Shown one piece after another: positions 2,817 through 14,967 of a DNA stretch of 64,000 nucleotides. The stretch's first letter is position 1. Every line of letters starts with the position of its first letter. This DNA comes from [Clostridium] aerotolerans DSM 5434 (GTDB lineage: Bacteria; Bacillota; Clostridia; Lachnospirales; Lachnospiraceae), in contig NZ_JHWJ01000019.1 of assembly GCF_000687555.1 (NCBI RefSeq), forward strand, positions 1 to 64,000, written 5' to 3'. The notes beneath the pieces are model-generated. The model searched no databases. It was not told the DNA's origin and saw only the letters and a list, made by a program, of their open reading frames with translations. Both the position numbers and the translations under genes were made by a program.

Positions 2817-3305
2817 TCACCTCACTGCCGCAAGCTCATCCGTATTCACAAGATTGAATTCCCGAATGACAATCTGGGCCACCTTTTCGGCAACCAGTCC
2901 GGTAAATGCAATGCATTGTTCCTTGTGAGCGCCGCTCGCCATATCGAATTCCTTTGTGAGAACACGGCAGCACAGAGAGTTCTTTCCATTGGCTGATTTA
3001 AAATAGTCATGAAGCTCATTGGCTAACGTAAGGTTTTTTTCTACTTTTGGGTCCCCCTGCCTGGTGCGTCCAAAGAAAAGTCCAAGAGTCATAACACCTC
3101 CGGATACTGCGCCGCATACGCACTTGGAACGTCCGATTCCAACTGGAAATCCAGAGGCCATAGAAACCACCATATCTGGAACATCAAGTTCAAAGTTGTC
3201 CCGGATGGAAGATATAACGGCTTCCGAACAAAAAAATCCACCCCGAAATAGCTCCTCTGCGTCCTTTTTCACTTTCTGTGCACTGACTTCTTTTTTCATT
3301 TCCAT
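2817..3305 (-). CDS. C_GCAxxG_C_C family putative redox protein
   Basis: 162 aa with the features of the C_GCAxxG_C_C family: an N-terminal helix with GGFFCSEAV, then the central KCVCGAVSGGVMTLG segment, and further cysteines (LCCRVLTKEFD; EQCIAFTG). The family is thought to be redox-active or metal-binding but has no defined reaction. The ATG at 3305 follows AAGGGGTG at good spacing. It is first in a two-gene unit with the TDT transporter, which may hint at a linked role in anion or metalloid handling, though that is inference. Confidence 0.75.
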   Translation of the reverse strand: MEMKKEVSAQKVKKDAEELFRGGFFCSEAVISSIRDNFELDVPDMVVSMASGFPVGIGRSKCVCGAVSGGVMTLGLFFGRTRQGDPKVEKNLTLANELHDYFKSANGKNSLCCRVLTKEFDMASGAHKEQCIAFTGLVAEKVAQIVIREFNLVNTDELAAVR

Positions 3306-3469
3306 TATAAAACACCCCTTTGTAAAATTTTATAAATTAATAGTATCATACCTGTTACATATCCTCCAATTGTGTTTCTCAATGTGTGTGAAATCAGTGA
3401 TTGTTTTTATCAATAAAGCAACAGTTTGTAGAGCAATCATAGGATAAATTTCAAAGACTGATATCATAA

Positions 3470-3498
3470 TTGATACAATGGGCAAAAATATGTATAAT
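3470..3498 (+). promoter_or_regulatory. Sigma-A promoter for the receiver-domain gene
   Basis: TTGATA (3470-3475) and TATAAT (3493-3498) are separated by exactly 17 bases and lie about 55 bases upstream of the receiver-domain start. This is a near-consensus vegetative promoter. Confidence 0.7.
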
Positions 3499-3552
3499 AT
3501 ATATTATTCCTAATTACAAATAGAAAACTTTCAAAGGAACCTGGGAGGCATT

Positions 3553-3945
3553 ATGGGCATCAAGACGGTAGTGGTAGATAATTCCGAGGAATTGTTGGAT
3601 AAAATAACCCGTATTTTAAAGGATATGAAGGAGATTGAGCTATTGGGCAGCTTTAACAATGCAGTGGAAGCCATGCAATATATAAAAGAAAATCATGTGG
3701 ATCTGGTATTTTCCGATGTGGTCATGCCAGAAATCAGCGGTATCACCCTTGCAGCTAAGCTTTATGAGCTGCCAAACCCGCCGGAAGTAGTTCTTCTTTC
3801 CGGTATTCCAGGATTTTCACTGGAGGCATGGAAAATCAGAGCTTACGGATTTATCATTAAACCATATAAAAAGAACCAAATCAAAGAAATCGTAGATCAG
3901 TATATTCTGGAATATGGAGTAAGAGAATCATGCAGTTCTTTCTGA
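3553..3945 (+). CDS. Stand-alone response-regulator receiver domain
   Basis: 130 aa made only of a CheY-like receiver domain. Visible key residues are the acidic N-terminal region, the phospho-acceptor Asp in VFSDVVMPEISG (about residue 55), the switch Ser in VVLLSG and the conserved Lys in IIKPYKK. No output domain follows and no frameshifted continuation was found downstream, so it is a single-domain regulator like Spo0F or CheY. No histidine kinase is adjacent. It sits directly upstream of gdpP, but gdpP has its own promoter, so shared function is only suggested. Ribosome site is GGGAGG before the ATG. Confidence 0.85.
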   Translation: MGIKTVVVDNSEELLDKITRILKDMKEIELLGSFNNAVEAMQYIKENHVDLVFSDVVMPEISGITLAAKLYELPNPPEVVLLSGIPGFSLEAWKIRAYGFIIKPYKKNQIKEIVDQYILEYGVRESCSSF

Positions 3946-3976
3946 CAGCAAAGAAAATAGGCGTGTTTTTCTTTTA

Positions 3977-4005
3977 TGGACGAACCCATTTTCCTATGTT
4001 ATAAT
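3977..4005 (+). promoter_or_regulatory. Promoter of the gdpP-rplI-dnaB operon
   Basis: TGGACG (3977-3982), 17 bases, TATAAT (4000-4005), about 45 bases before the gdpP ATG at 4051. Its position inside a longer open frame beginning at 3976 argues that the longer start is not used. Confidence 0.6.
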
Positions 4006-4050
4006 AAGGAAATAGTGAAAAAAGACCCTTTTTTCCATAAGGAGAAAGAT

Positions 4051-6111
4051 ATGAAAGAGAAGTTTAAAATAAAGGGGCAGCTGAGAGTTTATGTGCAGTG
4101 GCCGCTTTATCTGAGTGCGCTTTGGATCGTGGCAAATATGATCATAGGTGCGGTCAGCGCAAAGGCAGGAATCATCATGGCCTTGTTTACACTTTTGTAT
4201 ACCGGGCTTGCAGTCTGGCTTTACGCATACAGAAGGCAGCGTCTGCTTGGAGGCCTTGTGGAATTTTCAGCAGAATATTCCTGGATGCAGAAGAATTTTC
4301 TTACCGATCTGGAGCTTCCCTATGGGATCGCAGATGAGAGTGGACGTGTCTTATGGGGGAACGCGGCGCTTTCAGAAGTCCTGGGAGAGGAAAAGCCTCT
4401 TAAGATAACAAGAAAGAACATAACAACCATTTTTCCAGAAATAACAAAAGAAGCTCTTAAGCTGAGTAACGGGACAGCGGAACTTCATGCTACCTTAAAT
4501 GACCGCAAATATAAGATTCATTTAAAGACAGTGACCATGGAAGGCTCGTCCCAGGGCATTGGTCAAGCAGTAGATATGGATGCCGCCGGAGAGACCCTTG
4601 TAGCGGTCTATCTTTTTGATGAGACTGAGATTCTTACTTATAAGCAGATGGTTGACGACCAGAAGATGGTCGCAGGCCTTATTTATCTGGATAATTATGA
4701 TGAAGCCTTAGAGAGTGTGGAAGAGGTCCGCCGCTCCCTTCTTACGGCGCTCATTGACCGTAAGATTACAAAGTACATTACCAACATGAATGGAATTGTG
4801 AAGAAGCTGGAAAAGGATAAGTATTTTATCGCAATAAAGCAGTCCTATATTCCGGAGCTGAAAGAAGGCCGCTTTTCCATTTTAGAAGAAGTAAAAGGCG
4901 TGAATATCGGCAACGAGATGGCAGTGACCTTAAGCATTGGCCTTGGTATGAACGGGGATACGTATTACCGCAACTATGATTTTGCCAGAATCGCCATAGA
5001 TATGGCTCTTGGCCGCGGCGGTGATCAGGCTGTAGTAAAGGATGGGGAACGGATCCAGTTCTTTGGAGGCAAAGCACCTCAGGTAGAAAAGACCACCCGT
5101 GTCAAAGCCCGTGTCAAGGCTCATGCCTTAAGAGAGCTTATGGAAACCAAAGACCGGCTCCTAATCATGGGACACCGGCTCACAGACGTAGATTCCTTTG
5201 GAGCCGCAGTTGGTATCTACCGTATTGCAACTGCCTTAAATAAAAAGGCCCACATTATAATTAATGAAGTGACCACTTCTGTTCGTCCCTTGCAGGACCG
5301 GTTTATTGGAAATCCCGATTATCCCGATGATTTGTTCCTTACAGGAGCAAAGGCAGCAGAGCTTGTGGACGCCAACACCATTTTGGTGGTTGTGGATGTA
5401 AACCGTCCAAGTATTACCGATGCACCTGAGCTTTTGCGTATGGTAAAGACCATTGTGGTTCTAGATCATCACAGACAAAGCAGTGAGATCATCGAGAATG
5501 CGGTATTATCCTATGTGGAGCCATACGCTTCCTCAGCCTGTGAGATGGTTGCGGAGGTGCTTCAGTATATTGCGGACGGAATTAAGATTAAGTCTGCAGA
5601 GGCAGACGCCCTGTATGCGGGAATCGTCATTGATACTCATAATTTCACCAATCAGACTGGGGTCAGGACCTTTGAAGCAGCGGCATTTCTTAAGCGGAAC
5701 GGAGCTGATGTGGTCCGTGTGAGAAAGCTGTTTCGGGATGACCTTGATGATTACAAGGCAAAAGCAGAAGCAGTCCGTGAGGCAGAGATTTTTGAAAAAT
5801 ATTTTGCAATCAGTGTCTGCCCATCGGAAGGAATCGGAAGCCCTACGGTCATTGGGGCTCAGGCAGCCAATGAGCTACTTGATATAGCAGGCATTAAGGC
5901 ATCCGTCGTAATGTCACATTATAACAATACGGTGTTCATGAGCGCTCGTTCTATTGACGAGGTTAATGTCCAGGTCATGATGGAAAAACTGGGAGGCGGA
6001 GGCCACCGTACCATAGCAGGCGCACAGCTTGCAGATGTGACCATTGAAGAAGCAAAAACCCGCTTAAAAGCGGTTATCAAAGAGATGTTAGAGAAGGGAG
6101 ACATATCATAA
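4051..6111 (+). CDS. gdpP: GdpP-type cyclic-di-AMP phosphodiesterase (DHH/DHHA1)
   Basis: A 686-aa membrane protein with the full GdpP layout: two N-terminal helices (about residues 15-60), a PAS-like region (about 70-160), a degenerate GGDEF domain (about 165-300), then DHH and DHHA1 phosphoesterase domains. Catalytic motifs are visible: [12 protein letters not shown] (Asp-x-Asp), VVLDHHRQ (DHH), VIDTHNF and, near the end, [13 protein letters not shown]. The family hydrolyses c-di-AMP to pApA, controlling potassium and osmolyte balance and wall stress. Start 4051 is chosen because AAGGAG lies just upstream and a promoter lies in the extra codons of the longer frame. The stop overlaps the rplI ATG by one base (TAATG), indicating coupling. 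Confidence 0.95.
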
Positions 6112-10836: not shown

Positions 10837-10866
10837 AAATGCCCCTTCCTTACGGAAGAGGCATTT
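10837..10866 (-). terminator. Terminator of the ferredoxin gene
   Basis: A 13-base perfect stem (10837-10849 with 10854-10866) closed by a 4-base loop, just downstream of the ferredoxin stop on the minus strand. The following U content is moderate. Confidence 0.7.
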
Positions 10867-11938: not shown

Positions 11939-12184
11939 TTAGATATTGTCGTGGAATGTACGGGAGATAACTTCATCCTGCTGCTCTTTTGTCAGTTTGA
12001 TAAAGTTTACTGCGTAACCGGAAACACGAACAGTAAGCTGTGGATAATTCTCTGGATGCTGCTGAGCATCTAAAAGAGTTTCACGGGTAAAAACGTTAAC
12101 ATTTAAGTGATGACCGCCTTCTTCTACGTAGCCATCTAATAAATTCACAAGATTGTCGATCTGGGATGTGCTGATATTTGCCAT
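11939..12184 (-). CDS. Separate glycyl-radical domain of pyruvate formate-lyase (GrcA/YfiD-like)
   Basis: 81 aa that align end to end with the C-terminal domain of pyruvate formate-lyase: [17 protein letters not shown], then [19 protein letters not shown] and [21 protein letters not shown]. Gly56 in RVSGYA is the radical glycine. It has its own strong ribosome site (AAGGAGG) and ATG. The large subunit gene (12464-14524) lacks this domain, so the radical must be provided in trans. E. coli GrcA/YfiD is a similar spare domain, but there PflB keeps its own. Gene order pflB, small paralogue, this gene, pflA on one strand supports one operon. Confidence 0.9.
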
Positions 12185-12223
12185 AGTGTTATCCTCCTTA
12201 TGTGTTTGTACAAATGTGTTTGA

Positions 12224-12451
12224 TTAGTCTTCCTGGTCCAGACCGAAGAAGAGAGTTGGCACTTTACATGCCTGATCGCCTTCTGCACAGTCTGAGGAAC
12301 TTGTTGTAGTAATTGTTTTTGCCATAGTCTTATCGGCATTTACGGTACCGTCTTTGTCGACACGGATGTTCATGTGTCCGCCATTACCTGTCATGAATTC
12401 ATCAAGCATGGAGACGATATCGTCGATTTGTTTGCTTTTCGGATCTGCCAT
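12224..12451 (-). CDS. Small paralogue of the glycyl-radical domain lacking the radical loop
   Basis: 75 aa from ATG 12451 (AAGGAG eight bases upstream; a GTG at 12460 is in frame but has no ribosome site). Residues about 8-32 (QIDDIVSMLDEFMTGNGGHMNIRV) clearly parallel the start of the neighbouring 81-aa domain ([24 protein letters not shown]). After that it diverges: no RVSGYA loop, instead a Ser/Thr stretch, two cysteines (DCAEGDQAC) and an acidic tail (FFGLDQED). It cannot carry the radical. It may be a structural or regulatory partner of the split enzyme or a decayed duplicate; maintained ribosome site and frame argue for expression. Function unknown. Confidence 0.75.
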   Translation of the reverse strand: MADPKSKQIDDIVSMLDEFMTGNGGHMNIRVDKDGTVNADKTMAKTITTTSSSDCAEGDQACKVPTLFFGLDQED

Positions 12452-12463
12452 AGCAGTCACTCC

Positions 12464-14524
12464 TTATTTCTGGTTTTCGCTAAGTTCCAGTTCAAGATCC
12501 AACTCTAAATCGCCGTGGAAGATCTGATCTTCCTTACCAAGAGCACCTGGAATGATGGAGAAGGTATTGGAGATACCATCCTGAGCATCTTTAAATGGAA
12601 GCTTTGCTACAGATGCAAGGGAAGCGACAGCACCGTGAGTATCTCTGTGGTGCATTGGGTTAGCACCTGGTGCGAATGCGTCACCTTTCTTACGTCCATC
12701 AGGAGTTGCTCCTGTGTTCTTACCATAAACTACGTTAGAGGTAATTGTCAAGATAGAGGTTGTAGGAATACCATTTCTGTAAGTGTGGTTTTCCTTAATA
12801 TAGGACATAAATGTGTGAACCAGATCATGAGCGATTAAGTCAACGCGGTCATCGTTGTTGCCGTATTTCGGGAAGTCACCTTCAATTTCATAATCAGTAA
12901 CAACACCGTTCTCGTCGCGGATTGTTTTAACCTTTGCATACTTAATAGCAGAAAGGGAATCAGCCACTACGGAAAGTCCAGCGATACCGGTTGCGAACCA
13001 ACGGGTTACTTCTCTATCATGAAGAGCCATCTGAATGCGCTCATAGCTGTATTTGTCATGCATGAAGTGAATGATGTTAAGTGTATTTACATAAACAGAA
13101 GCCAGCCACTTCATCATCTGCTTGTAGGATTCTAATACTTCGTCGTACTCTAAATATTCAGAGGTAATCGGACGGTATTTTGGTCCTATCTGCTTTTTGG
13201 AGATCTCATCTACACCGCCGTTGATTGCGTATAAGAGACATTTTGCAAGGTTGGCACGAGCGCCGAAGAACTGCATCTCTTTACCAACTCTCATGGAAGA
13301 TACGCAGCAAGCGATGGCATAGTCATCACCGTGAGTAACTCTCATTAAGTCGTCGTTCTCATACTGGATAGAAGAGGACTCGATGGAAGACTTAGCACAG
13401 AAGCGTTTGAAGCCTTCTGGAAGTCTTGTAGACCAGAGAACGGTTAAGTTTGGCTCTGGAGCGGTTCCTAATGTATTTAATGTGTGCAGATAACGGAAGG
13501 ACATCTTTGTAACAAGGTGACGACCGTCAATACCTACACCACCGATAGACTCAGTTACCCAGGTAGGATCTCCTGAGAATAACTCGTTGTATTCTGGTGT
13601 ACGAGCAAATTTTACAAGACGAAGCTTCATAACGAAGTGGTCTACGAATTCCTGAATCTGCTCCTCAGTGAAGGTACCTTCCTCTAAGTCTCTCTGAGCG
13701 TATACATCGATGAATGTGGAGGTACGTCCAAGGGACATAGCAGCACCGTTCTGATCTTTAACAGCAGCCAGATATGCCATGTAGGTCCACTGGATTGCTT
13801 CCTGTACGTTCTCAGCTGGTCTTGAAAGGTCAATACCGTAGATCTGACCAAGTTTCTTTAAATCTTTCAGAGCGCGGATCTGCTCGGATAATTCCTCGCG
13901 GTCGCGGATAACATCAGCGTACATAACAGAGCTGGTGGTATCTTTCTGATCTTCTTTATCCTGAATCAGGAAATCGATTCCGTAAAGAGCCACACGACGG
14001 TAGTCACCGATGATACGTCCACGGCCGTAAGCATCTGGAAGTCCAGTGATGATATGGCTGGAACGGCAGTCACGCATTTCCTGTGTGTAAGCATCGAAAA
14101 CACCTGCGTTGTGTGTTTTTCTATGTGTGGAGAAGAATTCCTTAACTTCTGGGTCAAGGGTATAACCATTGTCTGCACAAGCCTTCTCTGCCATACGAAT
14201 ACCGCCGTAAGGCTGTAAGGAACGCTTAAATGGCTTATCTGTCTGGAATCCAACGATTTTCTCTTTGTCTTTGTTTAAATATCCTGGTCCATGGGAAGTA
14301 AGGGAAGAAATAACCTTTGTGTCCATATCAAGAACGCCGCCGGCTTCTCTTTCTTTTTTAGATAATTCAAGAACCTGCTCCCAAAGCTCTTTGGTAGCGG
14401 CAGTCGCTCCAACAAGGAAAGAGTCGTCGCCGTCGTAAGGGGTATAGTTCTTCTGGATAAAGTCCCGGACGTTAACTTCACGTTCCCAAGCGCCGCCTTT
14501 AAAGGCTCTCCATTCTGGTCTCAT
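12464..14524 (-). CDS. pflB: Pyruvate formate-lyase large part, without its glycyl-radical domain
   Basis: 686 aa from ATG 14522-14524 (TGGAGGT upstream; start [11 protein letters not shown] as in other PFLs). It has the active-site cysteine pair in [12 protein letters not shown] (near residue 412) and the surrounding [14 protein letters not shown]. The protein follows PFL up to [26 protein letters not shown] and then stops after an acidic tail, about 60 residues short of usual enzymes; the missing part is exactly the glycyl-radical domain, which is encoded separately at 11939-12184. PFL converts pyruvate and CoA to acetyl-CoA and formate. The cut falls at a domain boundary, and the next gene has its own start and ribosome site, so this looks like a fixed split, not a frameshift. 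Confidence 0.92.
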
Positions 14525-14588: not shown

Positions 14589-14609
14589 TTCATACAATCT
14601 TTGTATGAA
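14589..14609. promoter_or_regulatory. Perfect inverted repeat at the pfl transcription start (candidate operator)
   Basis: Arms TTCATACAA and TTGTATGAA around the spacer TCT, positioned on the expected +1 of the pfl promoter. A repressor bound here would block initiation. It does not match the Rex consensus (TTGTGA-n6-TCACAA). Confidence 0.55.
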
Positions 14610-14612
14610 TAT

Positions 14613-14642
14613 ATTATATATGAATACTGTATACAATGTCAA
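14613..14642 (-). promoter_or_regulatory. Sigma-A promoter of the pfl operon
   Basis: On the minus strand TTGACA (14642-14637) and TATAAT (14618-14613), both perfect consensus, separated by 18 bases. The expected transcript start is near 14606, about 80 bases ahead of the pflB ATG. Confidence 0.8.
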
Positions 14643-14766: not shown

Positions 14767-14967
14767 ATGCAGATCGATAAAGATATGGTAATCGGCAATT
14801 TGCTTCAGATTGATGAATGCATAGCACCAATTTTAATGCGTGCAGGCATGCATTGCCTTGGATGCCCATCCTCTCAGGGAGAGTCATTAGAGGAAGCTTG
14901 CATGGTTCATGGATTAGACTGTGACGTTTTAGTTTCCCAGATTAATGAAGTTCTGGCAGACAGATAA
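14767..14967 (+). CDS. DUF1858 / hybrid-cluster-associated redox-disulfide domain protein
   Basis: 66 aa. It matches the short domain also found at the N-terminus of ScdA/RIC-type proteins: [43 protein letters not shown]. The CLGC pair is the expected redox-active disulfide. Ribosome site AAAGGAGG. It is divergent from the pfl operon and ends in a terminator. Proposed role is thiol redox chemistry or Fe-S/NO stress handling; no direct partner is adjacent. Confidence 0.85.

Follow-up and report, generated by a model that had tools for sequence, protein, structure and literature searches.

In a 64,000-nucleotide stretch of the genome of [Clostridium] aerotolerans DSM 5434 (GCF_000687555.1, NZ_JHWJ01000019.1, positions 1–64,000; hereafter the window), pyruvate formate-lyase (PFL) is encoded as a catalytic chain and a separate glycyl-radical protein of 81 amino acids (aa), referred to as SMALL, with a third protein of 75 aa, referred to as MID, encoded between them. 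The split is clean and conserved, and all the pieces are under selection; we put at roughly 0.8 the probability that the only PFL found in this bacterium is assembled from these separately made parts. More tentatively, we propose that MID is a radical domain that has lost its original role, and that it shields or primes the empty radical site and governs the loading and swapping of SMALL, the cysteine device that it carries being one that may also sit in cis. PFL is one of the main sources of formate in anaerobes and is destroyed by oxygen, which cuts the chain at the radical glycine; in the split design, which occurs in several bacterial lineages, the oxygen-vulnerable part is a small separate subunit. 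Annotation hides this arrangement: the large chain passes as an ordinary formate C-acetyltransferase, SMALL passes as a repair cofactor and MID has no family.

Catalytic chain and radical subunit on separate genes

The reading frames of the window give the minus-strand gene order PFL large chain, MID, SMALL, PFL-activating enzyme (PflA), ferredoxin (Table 1). The large chain resembles the canonical enzyme, E. coli PflB (PDB code: 1h16), in that its residues 4–670 align to E. coli residues 10–682 and include the same pair of active-site cysteines, Cys406–Cys407 (codons 13309–13304); its score on TIGR01255, over profile positions 2–665 of 744, exceeds the cut-off of 994.2 bits. It thus has the vicinal-cysteine catalytic domain of a PFL and lacks a fused glycyl-radical domain: it contains neither an RVxGY nor an RIxGY motif and ends in an acidic, cysteine-free tail. 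The missing part lies in SMALL, residues 10–79 of which align to E. coli PFL residues 683–757, with Gly56, within RVSGYAV (codon 12019–12017), equivalent to G734. The Gly_radical family PF01228 covers the large chain with its profile positions 1–50 only and SMALL with positions 51–106, which means that the radical domain has been cut once, cleanly. Both halves of this picture had been put forward in the original prediction, namely a Cys-Cys chain ending where the radical domain should start and a radical domain encoded two genes downstream with a ribosome site of its own, and both were borne out; exactly one gene, MID, which that prediction left undescribed, lies between the two. The system differs from canonical PFL in being made from two genes, in a tail motif, FxGD[LI], that is present in 107 of 146 split chains and in 0 of 12 fused ones, and in the addition of a third protein or a cysteine-bearing tail. 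A comparison of the residues by which split chains can be told from fused ones revealed no clear docking patch.

Sequences resembling ribosome sites were seen by eye upstream of all five genes (GGAGG for the large chain, AAGGAG for MID, AAGGAGG for SMALL), with the poorest one in front of PflA; the AAGGAG of MID extends over the stop codon of the large gene. In the window the large chain, MID and SMALL share one reading frame, as would be expected if a sequencing or assembly error had split one gene, but this explanation is hardly credible: a complete extra gene lies between the pieces, each gene has its own ribosome-site-like sequence, the frames mostly differ in relatives (loci fetched for comparison are given L-numbers), and the same split recurs in independent assemblies. 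The ratios of nonsynonymous to synonymous substitution rates (dN/dS), calculated against the loci L014 and L099, are 0.06–0.07 for the large chain (only part of the chain being available in L014) and 0.08–0.09 for SMALL. In all 146 parsed split loci, the large chain ends 2–52 residues past a common LGK-type motif. We also considered the 686-aa gene as a frameshift product or a relic; this was rejected on the basis of the constraint and of the recurrence of the split in independent assemblies.

SMALL would carry the glycine that PflA converts to a radical, and it would have to dock in the barrel of the large chain for catalysis. By analogy with E. coli, the large chain and the free radical subunit should form an active enzyme. 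As reported, E. coli PFL cut at residue 695 and supplied with a free 67-residue YfiD radical domain shows, once activated, a turnover at least equal to that of intact PFL (PMC8683613), which indicates that a two-piece PFL is workable. Like GrcA/YfiD (PDB code: 6owr; NF038360 for GrcA3, TIGR04365 for GrcA), SMALL is a stand-alone radical domain, and its score on the GrcA3 model lies above the cut-off of 158 bits. It differs in that its partner has no radical domain from the start and in that no full-length PFL was found in the searched genome; SMALL is therefore a standing part rather than a repair part. That the split serves the exchange of oxygen-damaged radical subunits, as suggested in the original prediction, is a possibility. 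Among the 34 distinct PDB chains matching SMALL, the one short protein is E. coli GrcA (6owr).

The solved chains closest to the large chain are two entries entitled 'Formate acetyltransferase', 38la (687 residues, 1146 bits) and 38lb (739 residues, 1138 bits). The former ends LGKED, and the latter continues for about 41 residues beyond the aligned part, which ends FGECDMCE; since SMALL matches neither, both look like split catalytic chains. No literature on split PFLs or on these two structures was recognised among open PMC papers, preprints being outside the scope of the search. The split itself is not new to databases, as the large chain is covered by TIGR01255 and SMALL by NF038360 (GrcA3).

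Occurrence of split PFLs

The genome of [Clostridium] aerotolerans, which is 99.97% complete, contains six Gly_radical matches and four PFL-like matches. Its other glycyl-radical proteins, named here from their motifs, are two of the GCVEP type (857 and 855 aa), an NrdD and, with the motif ACWEP, a PflD-like protein of 676 aa. The search of this genome for a second full-length PFL, the check proposed along with the idea of a natively two-piece enzyme, returned none with a Cys-Cys site. The split gene is also the single PF02901 match in four of the eight named genomes carrying a split PFL, those of Ruminococcus albus KH2T6, R. bicirculans 80/3, Catonella morbi and Collinsella aerofaciens. Formate production is known for R. 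albus. A split enzyme that is the sole PFL of its genome is therefore very probably functional, and it would then produce acetyl-CoA and formate by means of a glycyl radical. The other four named genomes have eight further family members: one is a fused PFL-like enzyme, six lack the PFL-type Cys-Cys and one (L246) was not parsed.

One finding weighs against the split enzyme being the whole story: Claveliimonas bilis has, next to its split PFL (L151), a 756-aa fused PFL-like enzyme (L244) with three successive cysteines at the active site (DDYSICCCVS) and RVSGYAV, so that both kinds of PFL can occur in one genome. The coexistence fits the view that the 81-aa protein is a spare of the GrcA/YfiD type, the working enzyme being a full-length PFL encoded elsewhere and the 686-aa gene a truncated relic, and so does the name given to the small protein by NCBIfam, 'autonomous glycyl radical cofactor GrcA3'. 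We nevertheless regard this view as very improbable, considering that no other Cys-Cys PFL was found in our nearly complete genome, that the split gene is the sole PFL-like gene in four named species, that the dN/dS of the large chain is low, and that the 146 split chains end shortly after a common motif.

The spread of the split was assessed in draws of 294 genomes of the order, 393 of the class and 299 of the phylum. Some match to SMALL was present in 258 of the 294 order genomes, many of these matches being the radical domains of fused enzymes. Among the matches listed, a stand-alone SMALL was found in at least 72 order genomes, 53 with MID and 19 without, so the conservation and co-occurrence anticipated for a native split do extend over many genomes. 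In the phylum draw, 162 of 299 genomes matched the GrcA3 model, only two of them above the cut-off; most of the better matches lay in frames longer than 740 aa, indicating that fused enzymes are the rule there. The large chain was also used to retrieve named loci, of which the best 80 of a longer list were taken, with metagenome-bin record titles as given. Among these 80, split PFLs belong to Lachnospiraceae, Ruminococcus, Erysipelotrichaceae, Coriobacteriia, spirochaetes and Gastranaerophilales, and the closest named one is that of Lacrimispora amygdalina (87%).

Viral contigs matching SMALL numbered 15. On one IMG/VR contig of 109,813 bp (L254:944–3234), a 680-aa PFL chain, 66% identical and ending LGKDED without a tail, is followed by a 77-aa radical subunit, i.e. 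a split PFL on a phage-like genome; no MID was seen within this 6-kb locus. Stand-alone 77-aa radical subunits are present on two further IMG/VR contigs (L253 and L256; 332,864 and 230,252 bp), where they adjoin an NrdD-like gene (identified by eye) and a small radical-SAM activase. A viral PFL chain (L251/L263:3267–5276) aligns in one frame over 671 residues with its open frames broken by one or more in-frame stops, making stop recoding possible on these contigs. MID was sought in phage records (E limit 0.01) and among viral contigs, and none was found. Solitary radical-subunit genes also occur in L088 (positions 3025–4240), where this second copy lies directly ahead of thioredoxin-like and rubrerythrin-like genes (named by eye), an arrangement consistent with a spare part produced in response to oxygen stress, and in six more loci (L083–L087 and L089).

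MID and the cysteine element

MID consists of two dissimilar halves. Its N-terminal half is identical to that of SMALL at 12 of 31 positions (E 5e-8 in a single comparison) and, mapped through SMALL, corresponds approximately to E. coli PFL residues 681–709. In whole-genome searches, the first 34 positions of the MID profile match the radical domains of fused enzymes. The GrcA3 model is weakly matched by 16 of 17 MIDs (best E 4e-6); the MID of the window scores 20.6 bits on it, over profile positions 3–39 of 78 only, and is no GrcA3, being far below the cut-off and devoid of the radical glycine loop. MID keeps the part of the radical domain used in docking, a helix and the GGHMNIRV strand, which is equivalent to the barrel-completing strand β10, and a two-cysteine peptide stands in place of the glycine loop and of the last helix of the radical domain. 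This C-terminal half (DCAEGDQACKVPTLFFGLD, with Cys55 at 12289–12287 and Cys62 at 12268–12266) has a constant order: a variable spacer, an acidic residue, a cysteine, a few residues, a cysteine, two residues and a proline. The two cysteines before the proline are present in 17 of 17 aligned MIDs, with a gap of 5 or 6 residues, and a cysteine pair precedes xxP[TN] in all 40 MIDs of the named loci; the gap there is 4–8 in 19 cases and was counted as 9 from an extra upstream cysteine in the other 21, the nearer cysteine giving 6 by eye.

None of the 17 members matched Pfam with an E-value better than 0.064, and in the PDB a search with one sequence (limit E 10) gave no match, while a profile search gave four, none better than E 0.2. 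The sequence comparisons present MID as a third protein between the large chain and SMALL that is new as far as our literature and database search reached; no mention of MID or of a cis/trans cysteine element was found in the literature, a weak negative because neither has a name to search by.

MID was found in 53 of the 294 order genomes, all of which have a split PFL. The order large chain–MID–SMALL is observed in 50 of them (30 + 20 loci, many of which hold only part of the large gene). In the remaining three, from one genus, MID lies elsewhere in the genome (L059, L061, L063) and the PFL genes run large chain–PflA–SMALL (L090–L092); that MID is kept there despite being unlinked indicates that it most likely acts in trans. 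Note that two of these unlinked genes (L059:3016–3225 and L061:2947–3177) lie near the same membrane-protein and glutamate-5-kinase-like genes, named by eye. In the class draw, the MID profile matched 45 of 393 genomes, over most of its length in only 10; eight of these had already been seen, and the other two (L187 and L188) adjoin a split PFL, with the order large chain–SMALL–MID in L187. The dN/dS of MID is 0.25 against L014, 0.10 against L099 and 0.12 against a third relative, so MID is constrained, less so than the large chain and SMALL. Its retention together with the split design in many bacteria suggests that it helps to manage the fragile radical part.

Where MID is missing, cysteines are usually found on the tail of the large chain. 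This count relies on the 146 split loci with a readable tail, from which we excluded chains running off the locus or lacking the end motif as well as L132 and L172 (small gene unrecognised); L100, L053 and L026 were assigned to the MID class by hand, and L090–L092 formed a class of their own. MID absence was tested genome-wide for the order and class genomes and in six of the 27 named loci without MID; in these six genomes, Collinsella included, no full MID was found. A tail cysteine is present in 0 of 92 MID-adjacent loci, and the three loci with MID elsewhere in the genome have at most one each, whereas at least two tail cysteines are present in 48 of the 51 loci with no MID nearby. As rows are related and overlap between sources, those more than 95% alike were removed; the 84 split rows left (46 with MID, 36 with a cysteine tail, 2 with neither) show two tail cysteines in 0 of 46 MID rows and at least two in 36 of 38 rows without MID. 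At a threshold of 8 bits, a profile of the MID C-terminal half matches 19 of 44 distinct cysteine tails, 0 of 74 tails from MID loci and 4 of 4400 shuffled cysteine tails. By sequence, tails of the ACxxPTLFEGLD kind have good support as homologues of the MID C-terminal half; for those of the CACCEPN and GCC kinds, homology is unproven.

A tree was built by a quick method without a mixture model from 96 of 118 rows having a chain of sufficient length. The MID and cysteine-tail labels interleave on it: MID requires 12 changes, at least four of them forced by well-supported branches, and in independent pairs, nine on the best tree, MID and the cysteine tail never go the same way. A fused PFL whose long linker contains TCGCEEVTC (L094, 774-aa frame) is placed near split chains on a weak fork and may, from this position, be a re-fusion; a second fused PFL lying near split ones, with a long linker (L177, 803-aa frame), may be another.

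Several observations weigh against the role proposed below for MID and the cysteine element. Only three independent pairs fall on strongly supported branches (median p 0.25), and 25 of the 44 distinct cysteine tails score below 8 bits on the MID profile and may share nothing but their cysteines with it. Neither MID nor a cysteine tail is present in L079, L159 (Collinsella) and L205, nor in the 6-kb locus of the phage copy L254, so the element is not strictly needed. Lastly, in distant members neither the spacer between the halves of MID nor the interval separating its cysteines is constant, which argues against cysteines held at one fixed place as the glycine is.

What could MID do at the radical site? 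A natural split PFL would have to overcome weak docking, an activation step that is unsafe and a barrel left open. The E. coli study reports that binding of the YfiD domain to cut PFL is undetectable and its activation poor, that YfiD alone shows no detectable activation, that cleaved PFL is prone to proteolysis, and that E. coli residues 696–733, including strand β10, constitute the recognition element for good YfiD binding and activation (PMC8683613). The N-terminal half of MID overlaps this element, β10 included, and on this ground we propose that MID completes the barrel of the large chain while the active site is empty. MID would dock at the site of the radical subunit as a placeholder or loader, with its cysteines held near the mouth of the barrel, and would give way once SMALL binds; in split PFLs without MID, the cysteine tail of the large chain would fulfil some of this function in cis. 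Docking at the radical site is what the resemblance to the radical domain leads us to infer, and the placeholder or loader function as a whole is a possibility to which we give a little less than even odds. As for the cysteines, our guess is a redox guard, a thiol quenching stray radicals or a grip. If MID does occupy the radical site, the safe loading of a free radical subunit becomes directly testable with four genes.

A different emphasis would make MID and the cysteine tail mainly a redox or metal module, forming a disulfide or binding a metal, sensing oxygen or quenching radicals, with the half resembling the radical domain as a mere tether. The invariance of the two cysteines and the proline in the 17-row alignment next to a variable linker is consistent with such a module, as are the occurrence of the cysteine element in cis or in trans, the fused L094 linker included, and the thioredoxin-like and rubrerythrin-like neighbours of the solitary radical-subunit gene of L088. 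We consider it doubtful because aligned MIDs have only two cysteines in common and because the tail patterns vary (CxC, CC, C-x4-C), unlike a fixed metal site. Small cysteine-bearing subunits do accompany other glycyl-radical enzymes, 4-hydroxyphenylacetate decarboxylase and benzylsuccinate synthase, where they bind Fe–S clusters with more ligands; MID shares their small size and cysteines but differs from them in having just two common cysteines, too few for [4Fe-4S] clusters by comparison with those subunits, and a half resembling the radical domain.

It is also conceivable, if unlikely, that MID is an activation adapter bringing free SMALL to PflA or to a complex of PflA and the large chain, the active site being left untouched. 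Such an adapter would suit free YfiD being, in the same study, a poor PflA substrate that needs PFL for activation (PMC8683613), and PflA itself differs between the two kinds of system: at position 196, about 94% of 82 split rows have K, V or R and 92% of 12 fused rows have E. The split set, however, mixes loci that have MID with loci that lack it, which means that the difference at position 196 is not tied to MID, and the 12 fused rows come mostly from one clade. Position 197 also differs between PflAs of split and fused systems, again with a small fused set drawn mostly from one clade.

Operon context

The coordinates of the operon parts are collected in Table 1. The promoter-like site is a consensus match only, and the region contains 11 such sites for 8.9 expected. 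No Rfam family was found in the operon at the gathering score, and the folding of the MID–SMALL spacer is no better than that of shuffled sequences.

Table 1. Parts of the split PFL operon and their positions in the window
Feature	Position	Strand	Remarks
Promoter-like TTGACA-18-TATAAT upstream of the large chain	14613..14642	-	Consensus match only
PFL catalytic chain, 686 aa from ATG	12464..14524	-	PF02901 725.8 bits; TIGR01255 1107.8 bits
MID, 75 aa	12224..12451	-	Conserved, constrained; N-terminal half resembling the glycyl-radical domain, C-terminal half with two cysteines
SMALL, glycyl-radical subunit, 81 aa, GrcA3-type	11939..12184	-	NF038360 167.7 bits
PFL-activating enzyme PflA, radical SAM, 251 aa	11158..11913	-	TIGR02493 310 bits, cut-off 231.75
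Two-[4Fe-4S] ferredoxin, 56 aa	10880..11050	-	Last gene ahead of the terminator-like hairpin
Terminator-like hairpin 3' of the ferredoxin gene	10837..10866	-	

Relatives of the ferredoxin are present in 29 of the 138 loci examined, many of which end too early to judge. Short inverted repeats at 14589–14627, TTCATACAA/TTGTATGAA as well as GTATGAATATAT/ATATATGAATAC, lie across or beside the promoter-like site and are a possible operator; this A+T-rich region holds 17 such pairs, most of which are likely due to chance. Finally, a divergent 66-aa DUF1858 protein with a CxxC motif adjoins the promoter at 14767–14967, and its relatives are present in 34 of the 138 loci.

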